From positions 4,154,001 to 4,218,000 of the forward strand of contig NZ_CP058910.1 in NCBI RefSeq assembly GCF_013415885.1: 64,000 nucleotides of DNA. Direction: 5' to 3'. The DNA is from Halosimplex rubrum (GTDB lineage Archaea > Halobacteriota > Halobacteria > Halobacteriales > Haloarculaceae). Below, piece by piece: positions 33,254 through 37,585 of the stretch. Every line of letters begins with the position of its first letter. Within the stretch, counting starts at the first letter, position 1. Below the pieces are notes generated by a model. That model was not told the DNA's origin. It searched no databases and was given only the letters and a program-made list of their open reading frames with translations. The translations under genes and the position numbers were made by a program.

Positions 33254-33988
33254 TCAGTCGCCGCGGGCGGCGCCCGGGCGGTCGGGTTCGGCATCCGGTC
33301 GCACGGCGTCGAGCAGCTCGTCGCCGGCGTCGTCGACCTCGATCGCGTCGACGTTGGCGAACAGGAAGCCGGCGAACCCGACGCGGATCAGCAGGTCCAT
33401 GTACGCCCCCACGGTGCTGACGACGAACTCGTCGAACACCTGCGCGACCGAGAGCAGGGTGAACGCGATGAGCATCCCGATCAGGAAGAGGAGGAGGTTC
33501 CGCGCCTTCCAGTGGAGGAGGCGCTGCCGGTCGGGGAGTCGTTGAGCGCGCTCCCAGACCCGGCCGAGCAGGAGGTACGCGAACAGGACTTGCCCGACGA
33601 TCATCACGAACAGGCCGACGATCCCGGCGGTGCCGCCGAGGATCACTCCGCCGTTGAACGCGACGACCTGGACCACCGGGACGACGACGAAGACGCCGAC
33701 CATTCGGCGGGATTCGCCGGCGAGCAGGGCCGTTATCCCCCACAGTACGGAGTAGGCGATCAGGTCGTCGGCTATCCCCGGCGCGTCGAGACTGGTTCCG
33801 CCGATGTCAGTACCGACACCGAGCGCGATCAGCACCGTCGCGACCAGCGAGACGCCGAGGACGACCAGGACGGGATAACAGTACTGTCTCCGGGACGCCG
33901 AGATCTCCCGGAGCCAACCGAGCAGGACGACGAGCGCGACGGCCTGCACGGCGGCCGAGGCCCAGAAGACGACCGACGACTCAATCAT
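33254..33988 (-). CDS. lysine-less opsin homologue (sensory rhodopsin II-like)
   Basis: 244 aa with seven membrane helices. It aligns end to end with sensory rhodopsin II: FWASAAVQAVALVVL with helix A, TVLIALGVG with helix B, APGIADDLIAY with helix C, RNLLLFLIG with helix F, AYMDLLIRVGF with helix G. In helix G the retinal Schiff-base Lys (K205 in N. pharaonis SRII) is Arg202. Pocket aromatics W171, Y174 and W178 are Ile170, Leu173 and Thr177; R72 is Gly71. Kept are the counter-ion Asp positions (Asp74, Asp198) and Tyr196, the partner of HtrII Asn74. It overlaps the transducer gene by 8 bp, as in htrII-sopII. It cannot bind retinal covalently; likely a taxis receptor for another stimulus. Confidence 0.85.
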   Translation of the reverse strand: MIESSVVFWASAAVQAVALVVLLGWLREISASRRQYCYPVLVVLGVSLVATVLIALGVGTDIGGTSLDAPGIADDLIAYSVLWGITALLAGESRRMVGVFVVVPVVQVVAFNGGVILGGTAGIVGLFVMIVGQVLFAYLLLGRVWERAQRLPDRQRLLHWKARNLLLFLIGMLIAFTLLSVAQVFDEFVVSTVGAYMDLLIRVGFAGFLFANVDAIEVDDAGDELLDAVRPDAEPDRPGAARGD

Positions 33989-35585
33989 CGTCGCCCCCCG
34001 CGAGCGAGACGGCGCCCGGTCCCGTCCCGTCGCCGGCCGCGCCCGCCTCGTCGCGCGTCTCGAACTCGGCGAGGCGGTCGAGCAGGTCGTCGGTCCGCGT
34101 GGAGAGGTCGTCGGCGCGCTCGCGCACGCCGGCCATCGTCTCGGCGGTCTCGGCGGCGGTGTCGGCCAGTTCGTGCGAACGGTCGGCGACGCGGCGGGCG
34201 ACCTCGCCGACGGAGTCGACGGTCGCGGCGACCTCCTCGGTGGCGGCGGCGCCGTCGTCGGTGGCGCGGGCGATCTCGCCCATCGCGGCGTCGACGTCGT
34301 CGACGGTGTCGGTCAGCGAGTCAAGCGTCTCGCCGACGCCGGTCACCGTGTCGACGCTCGCGTCGATCCGGTCGCGGGTCCGGTCCATCTCGCCGGTCAC
34401 GTCGTCGACGTCGGCCCGTGCCCCCTCGACGATGGCCTCGATCTCGTCGATGGCGTCCTGGGTCTCCTCGGCGAGCTGCTTGACCTCGTCGGCGACGACG
34501 GCGAACCCGTCGCCGCCAACGTCCGCGTGGGAGGCCTCGATGTTGGCGTTCAGCGCGAGGATGTTGGTCTGCTCGGCGATGTCGTCGATGATGCCGGTCG
34601 TCGCCGCCACCTCGTCCATCCGGTCGTCGAGTTCGGTGACCAGCCGGTCGAGTTCGTCGACCGTCTCCTCGACGGTCTGGATGGCCGCGATGGCCTCCTC
34701 GGCGCGCTCGGCGCCGGTCGCGCCGACGTCGGAGGCCTCGGCGGCCTGGTCGGCGATCTCGTCGGTCGTCGCGGCGACCTCCTCGATCGTCGCCGAGAGG
34801 TCGTCGACCTCGGCGACGGCGCTCTCTAACTGTTCGGCCTGGTCTTCGAGGTCGGTCGCCAGCTCGCGGATGTCCGCTGCCAGCCGCTCGTTGAGGTCCT
34901 GGACCTCCGCGGACTCGGCGGCGACGGTCGTGCTCGACTCCTTGACGCGGTCGGCGAAGGTGCGGATCTCCTCGACGGTCTCGGAGAGGCCGTAGGTCAT
35001 CTCGTCGTAGGCGTCGGCGATCCGGTCGACCGCGTCGACGTCGGTGTCGGTCTCGAGGTCGCGCGTGAAGTCGCCCTCGGCGGCGGCGGTCATCGCGTCG
35101 CCGATGCGCTCGGCGTGGTCGAGCAGTTCCTCGTTGAACGCCTCGGCCTGTTCGGTCGCCGCTTCGGCCTCCTCACGGGCCCGTTCGGCCTCCTCGCGCG
35201 CTTCGTCGGACTCGTCGAAGGCCTCGCCGAGCGACCGACGCATGCTGTCGAAGGTGGTCGCGAGGCGACCGAACTCGTCGCCCCGGTCGACGTCGGCCGA
35301 GGCGTCGAGGTCGCCGTCCTCGACGGCCTCGGCCGCGTCGGTCAACCGGCGGAGCGCGACGGCCGCGTTGCCGCCGAGCACGATGGCCAGCAGTCCGAGA
35401 TTGAGGACGAGGACGAACAGCGTCCCCGCGATCCCGGAGACGCCCGCGGCCGACCCCGTCGCGGACGCCGCGTGGTCCGCGAACACCGCCCCCAGCGCCA
35501 CGGTCGCGGCGCCGGTCAGCGCGACCGCCGTAGCGATGCGCCGACTGTAGTGGTTTCCGATCGCTGATACTGTCGCCGTATTCAT
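33981..35585 (-). CDS. HtrII-like taxis transducer (methyl-accepting)
   Basis: 534 aa. TM1 (~17-35) and TM2 (~52-71) are joined by only ~17 residues, so there is no periplasmic ligand-binding domain, as in HtrII of N. pharaonis. TM2 holds LNLGLLAIVLGGNAA, close to the HtrII sequence, including Asn62 (HtrII Asn74). Two HAMP segments (~75-125, ~155-205), a long coiled coil, and the CheA/CheW-binding tip at ~335-370 (AEQTNILALNANIEASHAD). The tip has ASHA where AARA is usual, so a nearly invariant Arg is His353. The signal must come from the opsin-like partner encoded next. Confidence 0.92.
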   Translation of the reverse strand: MNTATVSAIGNHYSRRIATAVALTGAATVALGAVFADHAASATGSAAGVSGIAGTLFVLVLNLGLLAIVLGGNAAVALRRLTDAAEAVEDGDLDASADVDRGDEFGRLATTFDSMRRSLGEAFDESDEAREEAERAREEAEAATEQAEAFNEELLDHAERIGDAMTAAAEGDFTRDLETDTDVDAVDRIADAYDEMTYGLSETVEEIRTFADRVKESSTTVAAESAEVQDLNERLAADIRELATDLEDQAEQLESAVAEVDDLSATIEEVAATTDEIADQAAEASDVGATGAERAEEAIAAIQTVEETVDELDRLVTELDDRMDEVAATTGIIDDIAEQTNILALNANIEASHADVGGDGFAVVADEVKQLAEETQDAIDEIEAIVEGARADVDDVTGEMDRTRDRIDASVDTVTGVGETLDSLTDTVDDVDAAMGEIARATDDGAAATEEVAATVDSVGEVARRVADRSHELADTAAETAETMAGVRERADDLSTRTDDLLDRLAEFETRDEAGAAGDGTGPGAVSLAGGDDD

Positions 35586-35611
35586 CACTGGATCGGCGTT
35601 TCGTGAGCCCA

Positions 35612-35619
35612 CTTTTATT
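35612..35619 (-). promoter_or_regulatory. TATA box of the transducer/opsin-like operon
   Basis: AATAAAAG on the minus strand, about 30 bp before the transducer ATG at 35585, giving a near-leaderless mRNA. The surrounding 35600-35730 is distinctly A/T-rich for this genome. Confidence 0.55.
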
Positions 35620-35757: not shown

Positions 35758-36305
35758 TTAGTCGTCGTCCAGCACGCCCTCGGCGACGGCCGTGTCGTCG
35801 ACGGCGGGGTCGTCGGCGGTCGACCGGAGCACGAACCGCTTGCCGTACTCCCCGCGGATCTGCTCGTGGGCGTACATCTCCGCGGCGGAGCACTGGATGG
35901 CGCCGCCCCCGTATCCCTCGTCGAGGTCCGACTCGACCACGTCGCCGACGGCGGCCTGCTGGGCGGAGTCGAGGTCGCCGTACTCACCCCCGTAGCGCTC
36001 GCCGGCGTAGTAGTCGCGCATGCGCTCGACTTTCAGATCGAGCGTGTCTGCGGTGTAATCGGCGCCGTAGTAGGCGCCGTTGCTCAGGATCGACCCGTGG
36101 TTCATCAGCCCGTCGCGCTGGAAGGCCTTCTCGCCCTCGCGGATGTCCGTGCCCGTCATCACCGTCTCGCCGTCGGGACCGACGACGTTCTCGGGGATCG
36201 GCGGTGGCTCCTGGTAGGCCAGCCACGCGCCGCCGGCCATCACCACCAGGTTGAACACGAAGACCGCTGCCAGTATCTTCGCGATCGTCGCCGTTCGACT
36301 TCCAT
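35758..36305 (-). pseudogene. norB (quinol nitric oxide reductase) 5' fragment
   Basis: Encodes only the N-terminal part of qNor: a membrane helix, GGAWLAYQEPPPIPENVVGP, then FQRDGLMNHGSILSNGAYYG, ADYTADTLDLKVERM and RMRDYYAGERYGGEYGD. It stops after ~165 codons, before any of the haem- and iron-binding helices of a ~750-residue enzyme; the last ~25 residues (from STADDPAVDD) are not NorB-like. An ATG at 36305 starts MEVERR, but one base is missing before TIAKILAAVFVFNL. Truncation plus a 5' frameshift make it non-functional. Confidence 0.75.
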
Positions 36306-36463: not shown

Positions 36464-37585
36464 TCAGAGGTCGGCCACGTCTTCGATCGCGTCGGTGAGT
36501 TCCTGAATACTCTCCAGGTCGTGTTCGCCCATGTGGCCGATGCGGAACGTCTGCTCGCCCAGCTGGGAGCCGTAGCCGTTCGAGAAGACGAAGTCGTACT
36601 CCTCGGAGACTTCCTCGATGGTCGCGGCCACGTCGATGTCCTGGGTGTTCTCGATGCAGGAGACCGTCTGGGAGCGGTAGCCCTCCTCGGCGAAGAGATC
36701 GAAGTGCTCCTCGGCCCAGTCGTGGACGTACTCGGTCATCTCCCGGTGGCGCTGGTCGCGGCCCTCGTGGCCCTCTTCGAGCATGTACTTCATCTGCTTG
36801 CGGTAGGCGAGCATGACCGGGATCGCGGGGGTCGAGTGAGTCTGACCCTTCCGGTCGTAGTAGTCGATGGTGCGCTGGAAGCCGCCGTACCACGAGGCCG
36901 AACCCTTGTCGAGTTCCCGGTCGTAGGCGTCGTCGCTGACGACGCAGACGGCGAGGCCCGGCGGCATGGCGAAGGCCTTCTGGGTCGAGGCGAAGATCAC
37001 GTCGATGTCGTGCTCGTCGATGTCGACGTAGTCGCCGCCCAGCGCGGAGACGGCGTCGACGACGAAGTAGGTGTCCGGGTAGTCGGCGACCACGTCGCCG
37101 ATCTCCTCTATCGGATTGCGGACGCCCGTCGAGGACTCGTTCATCACCGTCGCGACCACGTCGTAGTGTTTGTCGCTGTCCTCCAGTTCGGCGCGGATGT
37201 CCTCGGGCTTGATGGCCTCGCCCCAGTCGTACTCGAGGCGGTCGACATCCTTGCCGAGCCGTTCGGCGACGTTGGCGTGGCGCTCGCTGAAGCTCCCGCA
37301 GGTCGGCACGAGGATGTTCTCGTCGACGAGGTTGAGCGTCGACGCCTCCCAGAACTCGGTGCCCGACGCGGTGAGGATGACGACCTCGTTGTCGGTGCCG
37401 AGGAACTCCTTGGTGTCCTCGACGATGGTCGTGTAGAGGTCGGTCATCCGGTCCATGCGGTGGCCGAACATCGGCTGGGCCATCTCGTCGATGACGTCTT
37501 CGCGGACCTCGGTCGGGCCGGGGATGTACAGCGTCTTGTCGTCGTAGTCGCCTGTGTATTCCTGTTTTGTGGGCACGGAAACCAC
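36464..37585 (-). CDS. class V aminotransferase, alanine-glyoxylate type
   Basis: 373 aa. PLP lysine Lys203 in ASTQKAFAMPPG, with the cofactor aspartate in VVDAVSALGGDYVDI. N-terminal YIPGPTEVREDV and GHR (FGHRMDRM) are typical of serine-pyruvate and alanine-glyoxylate aminotransferases. It moves an amino group to glyoxylate or pyruvate, in glycine/serine metabolism. Start is GTG at 37585; a second GTG three codons later is equally possible. Confidence 0.88.
   Translation of the reverse strand: MVSVPTKQEYTGDYDDKTLYIPGPTEVREDVIDEMAQPMFGHRMDRMTDLYTTIVEDTKEFLGTDNEVVILTASGTEFWEASTLNLVDENILVPTCGSFSERHANVAERLGKDVDRLEYDWGEAIKPEDIRAELEDSDKHYDVVATVMNESSTGVRNPIEEIGDVVADYPDTYFVVDAVSALGGDYVDIDEHDIDVIFASTQKAFAMPPGLAVCVVSDDAYDRELDKGSASWYGGFQRTIDYYDRKGQTHSTPAIPVMLAYRKQMKYMLEEGHEGRDQRHREMTEYVHDWAEEHFDLFAEEGYRSQTVSCIENTQDIDVAATIEEVSEEYDFVFSNGYGSQLGEQTFRIGHMGEHDLESIQELTDAIEDVADL

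Follow-up and report, generated by a model that had tools for sequence, protein, structure and literature searches.

What can a taxis receptor sense when its opsin has no lysine to hold retinal? The question is raised by two overlapping genes in a 64,000-nucleotide stretch of the Halosimplex rubrum genome, a 4.48-Mb single contig (NZ_CP058910.1, positions 4,154,001 to 4,218,000; hereafter the window). Lysine-less relatives of the sensory opsins have been described in haloarchaea as opsin-related proteins (ORPs), 48 in number and divided into two groups (Becker et al. 2016, PMC4915679). Group A is characterized by Lys→Arg at the retinal position, W76→D and Y174→L (SRII numbering), with a HAMP/MCP transducer adjacent in 15 of 16 cases and Tyr199 kept throughout. 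W178→Ala and Met108 are given as descriptive features of the published group A members, mainly from Halorubrum, and an aminotransferase is named in the S1 Fig context legend. ORPs are transcribed, and mass spectrometry failed to detect the native protein. Retinal addition gave no band from two ORPs, one per group; the purified group A protein, from Halorubrum distributum, shows none between 480 and 580 nm. Eight species without retinal synthesis carry ORPs, both groups counted, and the proposed role is taxis to non-light stimuli (PMC4915679). In the literature found, a stimulus, binding or a taxis response is reported for no ORP, and a search for functional tests after Becker 2016 returned none.

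Architecture of the locus

Both genes lie on the minus strand (Table 1). The transducer stop codon (33981-33983) falls within the overlap with the opsin gene, whose ATG occupies 33986-33988, and the transducer itself starts either at GTG 35612 or at ATG 35585. The open reading frames, their coordinates and the length of the overlap are exactly those of the initial annotation.

Table 1. Positions of the opsin and transducer genes, their key residues and a neighbouring gene in the window
Feature	Position	Strand	Basis or conservation
Opsin-related protein, group A type, 244 aa, 7 predicted helices, lysine-less	33254..33988	-	ORF, phmmer to SRII, AlphaFold2/Foldseek, tree
HtrII-type transducer: 2 TM helices, very short loop, HAMP, MCP signalling domain	33981..35612	-	Pfam, HtrII match
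Overlap of transducer 3' end and opsin start, 8 bp, ATGATTGA	33981..33988	-	
Codon CGC, Arg202 at the retinal-lysine site (SRII Lys205)	33383..33385	-	Arg in 62/62 group A
Tyr196 (SRII Tyr199, transducer contact)	33401..33403	-	Tyr in 62/62 group A
Asp75-Asp74 (SRII Trp76, Asp75)	33764..33769	-	Acid at one or both sites in 60/61 scorable group A
Transducer Asn62, numbered from ATG (HtrII Asn74), partner of Tyr196	35400..35402	-	Asn 49/58, His 9/58
Aminotransferase-type gene	36464..37585	-	Same-strand neighbour at every Halosimplex locus and in several related genera

Adjoining the transducer is norB (quinol-type nitric oxide reductase; 35758-36258, minus strand), which in the assembled sequence is shortened by an internal deletion that preserves the reading frame. 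What is left is the N-terminal NorB cytochrome-c-like region together with the final residues, and all catalytic helices are missing; the gene is full length (769-812 aa) in the Halosimplex relatives L124, L125 and L126.

Fold and retinal site of the opsin-like protein

A Pfam search finds no identity for the window opsin, which gives no match to Bac_rhodopsin (PF01036) above the gathering score. A phmmer search against all PDB chains returns sensory rhodopsin II (SRII) chains only, the best being 1gu8 (E 1.5e-7, residues 4-223). The AlphaFold2 model, built with nine homologues (pLDDT 79, pTM 0.74), has SRII 3qap as its best Foldseek match (E 3.6e-8, TM 0.78/0.86). The two approaches agree on a seven-helix protein akin to SRII over its length, as initially proposed.

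In the alignment with SRII, K205 is replaced by R202, and the pocket aromatics W171, Y174 and W178 by I170, L173 and T177, reproducing the substitutions read from the sequence beforehand; W76 is also replaced, by Asp75. Y199, D75 and D201 correspond to Y196, D74 and D198. The lysine codons AAG and AAA were looked for at the Arg202 codon, where CGC is found; it differs from both at all three positions, so a single base-call error cannot account for the arginine. By computation, the window opsin has the ancestry and fold of SRII and has lost both the retinal lysine and the pocket aromatics. It is without the SRII-type Schiff-base lysine and retinal pocket, yet retains a type 1 opsin fold and an HtrII-type partner, and we infer that it has itself lost retinal binding.

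The protein is a group A ORP by the features that define the group: arginine at the Schiff-base site, an adjacent HAMP/MCP transducer, Asp75, Leu173, Tyr196, and a place in the lysine-less clade next to the sensory opsins. It also shares with the published members the loss of the pocket aromatics and a nearby aminotransferase gene. It differs from them in being of a Halosimplex type, Becker's being mainly from Halorubrum, in having both Asp74 and Asp75, and in carrying Thr177 and Gln107 where Ala178 and Met108 were described. Among the 62 group A rows the former site is usually Ala (49) or Ser (9) and the latter Gln (29) or Met (28), so both are lineage features and not definers of the group.

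Census and phylogeny of lysine-less opsins

Homologues were gathered from 146 family genomes and 391 class genomes, and about 140 loci were examined; these whole-genome searches supersede an initial contig scan that had returned one locus only, in Halosimplex pelagicum. Four lysine-less types are distinguished by the residue at the retinal position: group A with Arg (62 rows), a second Arg type termed R2 (9, one a divergent fragment), group B with Leu, Phe or Val (26), and a type with His (4).

In the LG+C20 tree of 126 rows, to which Becker's sequences were not added by name, one branch with support 100/100 parts all lysine-less rows from SRII, BR and HR. The window protein, for which such a tree had been called for, falls on the lysine-less side with its Halosimplex relatives, inside a group A clade likewise supported at 100/100. 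Separate branches hold the R2, group B and His rows, in an order that the tree does not settle. The single deep branch suggests, without proving, that the retinal lysine was lost in one event, SRI and middle rhodopsins not having been deliberately sampled.

The R2 clade (100/99; L091, L092, L095, L100, L102, L103, L107 and L111, family f3) mostly retains Tyr51, Arg72, Asp75 and Tyr174. Its transducers, read by eye against HtrII on account of their large extracellular insert, have roughly 200 residues from TM1 to HAMP (HAMP at 297-347), and with so large an extracellular segment the R2 pairs may be bimodal receptors. Of the four loci with His at the retinal position (L028, L029, L031 and L117), three are without a transducer directly upstream.

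Group B resembles the window protein in lacking the lysine, in lying on the same side of the tree and in often standing near transducers. It differs in having Gly at SRII 75 (25/26), in keeping Tyr51 and Arg72, and in the absence of an upstream transducer from 13 of 26 loci. Rh-noK and the freshwater FArhodopsins are also lysine-less opsins, sometimes with Arg, but they are bacterial relatives of proteorhodopsin and xanthorhodopsin; the FAR cluster is without transducer genes, and Rh-noK stands in tandem with a proteorhodopsin gene (PMC10308929).

The transducer and its interface with the opsin

The transducer matches MCPsignal (2.1e-35) and HAMP (4.4e-12) in Pfam, with a further match between its N-terminal region and the HtrII chain of the SRII complex (2f95_B, E 2.4e-20). 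The TM1-TM2 loop is 7 residues shorter than that of NpHtrII, which bears out the reading of an HtrII-like transducer with a very short periplasmic loop. Such a loop is too short for a ligand domain, leaving the opsin as the sole plausible extracellular or intramembrane sensor, provided that the pair responds to anything outside. The pair resembles SRII-HtrII of Natronomonas pharaonis in fold, in gene pairing, in the two-helix HAMP/MCP transducer and in the residues of the Tyr199-Asn74 contact; it differs in the shorter loop, in having no lysine, retinal pocket or Arg72/Tyr51, and in being about 24% identical.

SRII Tyr199 is the residue in contact with HtrII Asn74. Its equivalent is Tyr in every group A row, and the Asn74 site of the partner transducers holds Asn in 49 of 58 and His in the other 9, which backs the initial view that the signalling interface is kept. 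Conservation within group A peaks at the cytoplasmic end of helix F and in helix G, likely the transducer-facing side, and the extracellular half is variable.

The gene order is similarly stable: 59 of the 62 group A opsins have a transducer directly upstream, and the identical 8-bp overlap recurs at 42 loci. No lasting partner beyond the transducer was found, the neighbouring aminotransferase, DNA ligase and DUF7123 genes being kept only within the family. These neighbours are lineage-local, so the stimulus is not readable from gene context.

Conservation and charge pairing at the former retinal site

Six residues are invariant in the 62 group A rows (about 42 effective): Arg202, Tyr196, Lys161, Arg163, Asn164 and Leu165. 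The site is therefore under selection and not drifting, and the conservation of Arg202 across homologues, singled out beforehand as worth examining, is complete within the group. The initial annotation had also counted Tyr196, transducer Asn62, Asp74 and Asp198 as kept. All four are present here, but Asp occupies the Asp74 site (the SRII Asp75 counterion) in only 22 of 62 rows and the Asp198 site in 36 of 62; neither is conserved across group A, and both are thus weak evidence of kept function. The conserved acid is instead Asp75, at the SRII Trp76 site (53/62).

The charge at position 205 and an acid at SRII 75/76 change together, in counts that are not independent and cluster in a few clades: the acid accompanies a charged residue (Arg or Lys) in 77 of 78 cases and a neutral one in 0 of 26, being absent from 75/76 in all of the latter. 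By residue, Arg is paired with an acid in 68/69 scorable rows (60/61 in group A, 8/8 in R2), Lys in 9 of 9 and His in 1 of 4. In one branch inside group A (L089), Arg and acid are lost together. At the level of the alignment, this pattern suggests that a buried ion pair may have taken over from the Schiff base and its counterion.

Retinal supply and motility genes

The source genome has a Brp/Blh match (E 2.2e-75) and three canonical opsins, the only PF01036 matches in the genome scan, so retinal is available; one of these opsins is SRII-like, with its own transducer upstream. Archaellin and CheW genes are also present. Of 30 group A genomes checked, three (G065, G169 and G263) lack Brp/Blh and any PF01036 opsin; in a fourth (G122) Brp/Blh is also absent, and the PF01036 matches, all weak, are its own ORPs. 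At least four group A genomes thus have neither Brp/Blh nor a canonical opsin, and the pair persists where the known enzyme cannot make retinal. Archaellin is found in 29 of the 30. The G122 locus (L023) holds a group A pair in a genome with no archaellin match as well as no Brp/Blh; flagellar output is therefore not universal, and a non-motility output is possible for this pair.

Proposed function and alternatives

A group A ORP and its cognate transducer probably form a taxis receptor that uses a retinal-free opsin as its input module. Sensing of something other than light had been proposed for this pair from its sequence; it is well supported, apart from the appeal to Asp74 and Asp198, and is essentially the hypothesis already published for group A (PMC4915679). 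That the protein is still a photoreceptor, holding retinal or another carotenoid-derived chromophore non-covalently, is quite improbable. The organism does have Brp/Blh and three canonical opsins, and a bacteriorhodopsin without its lysine is able to function when given retinal analogues that carry an amine (cited in PMC4915679). Against this, the aromatics at 171, 174 and 178 and W76 are all replaced, several group A genomes are without Brp/Blh, three of them without any PF01036 match, and a group A ORP gave no band (PMC4915679).

It is somewhat less improbable, although still unlikely, that the opsin senses nothing and serves as a structural partner that sets the basal activity or assembly of the transducer. 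A conserved, probably transducer-facing side with a variable extracellular half would fit such a role, as would the near-constant overlapping gene order, which suggests equal dosage. A scaffold, however, needs neither Arg202 nor an acid at 75/76, both strongly constrained in the old retinal core, and the short loop would leave the transducer without extracellular input. The many lost canonical residues and the truncated neighbouring norB might also be taken for signs of a decaying former SRII gene pair, which is highly improbable: the frame is intact, residues are invariant over many genera and families, the gene overlap is conserved, and dN/dS between the window opsin and its closest homologue is 0.36. 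Between more distant Halosimplex pairs dN/dS is 0.6-0.7, only mildly purifying. A pseudogene reading of the opsin was rejected on its conservation and the lower of these values.

For the taxis receptor with a retinal-free input module, a mechanism can be outlined. Opsin helices F and G would bind TM1 and TM2 of the transducer in a 2:2 complex, and the former retinal cavity would be closed by a buried ion pair between Arg202 and Asp75/Asp74. A non-light stimulus, acting on this cavity or on an outward-opening pocket, would displace helices F and G relative to the transducer, which would relay the signal via HAMP to CheA and the archaellum. Our guess is that the stimulus is most likely a small molecule or an ion. 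A more specific version, doubtful as it stands and derived from residue patterns, is that in group A the Lys205-retinal linkage with its counterion Asp75 was exchanged for a permanent buried Arg202-Asp75 pair, whose acid sits one residue on, at the old Trp76 site; the signal would then be the formation or rupture of this pair, brought about by a proton, another ion, a small anion or voltage. If this is true, the opsin, once switched by light, is now switched electrostatically or chemically.

Implications

Beyond the work of Becker et al., the analysis adds a wider census, independent cases of pair-bearing genomes without retinal synthesis, the invariance of the arginine, a conserved acid that has moved from 75 to 76, the correlation of charges at 205 and 75/76, and the separate R2 and His clades, which are absent from that paper's text. 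The Halosimplex pair lends itself well to testing: it is minimal, a ligand domain is absent from its transducer, and the same genome offers for comparison an SRII-like opsin that has a transducer of its own. Two defined sites for mutants are at hand, namely Arg202, which is invariant, and the acid on helix C that partners it. Should ORPs prove to be taxis receptors for stimuli other than light, type 1 opsins would parallel the GPCRs, with one seven-helix scaffold serving both light and other signals.
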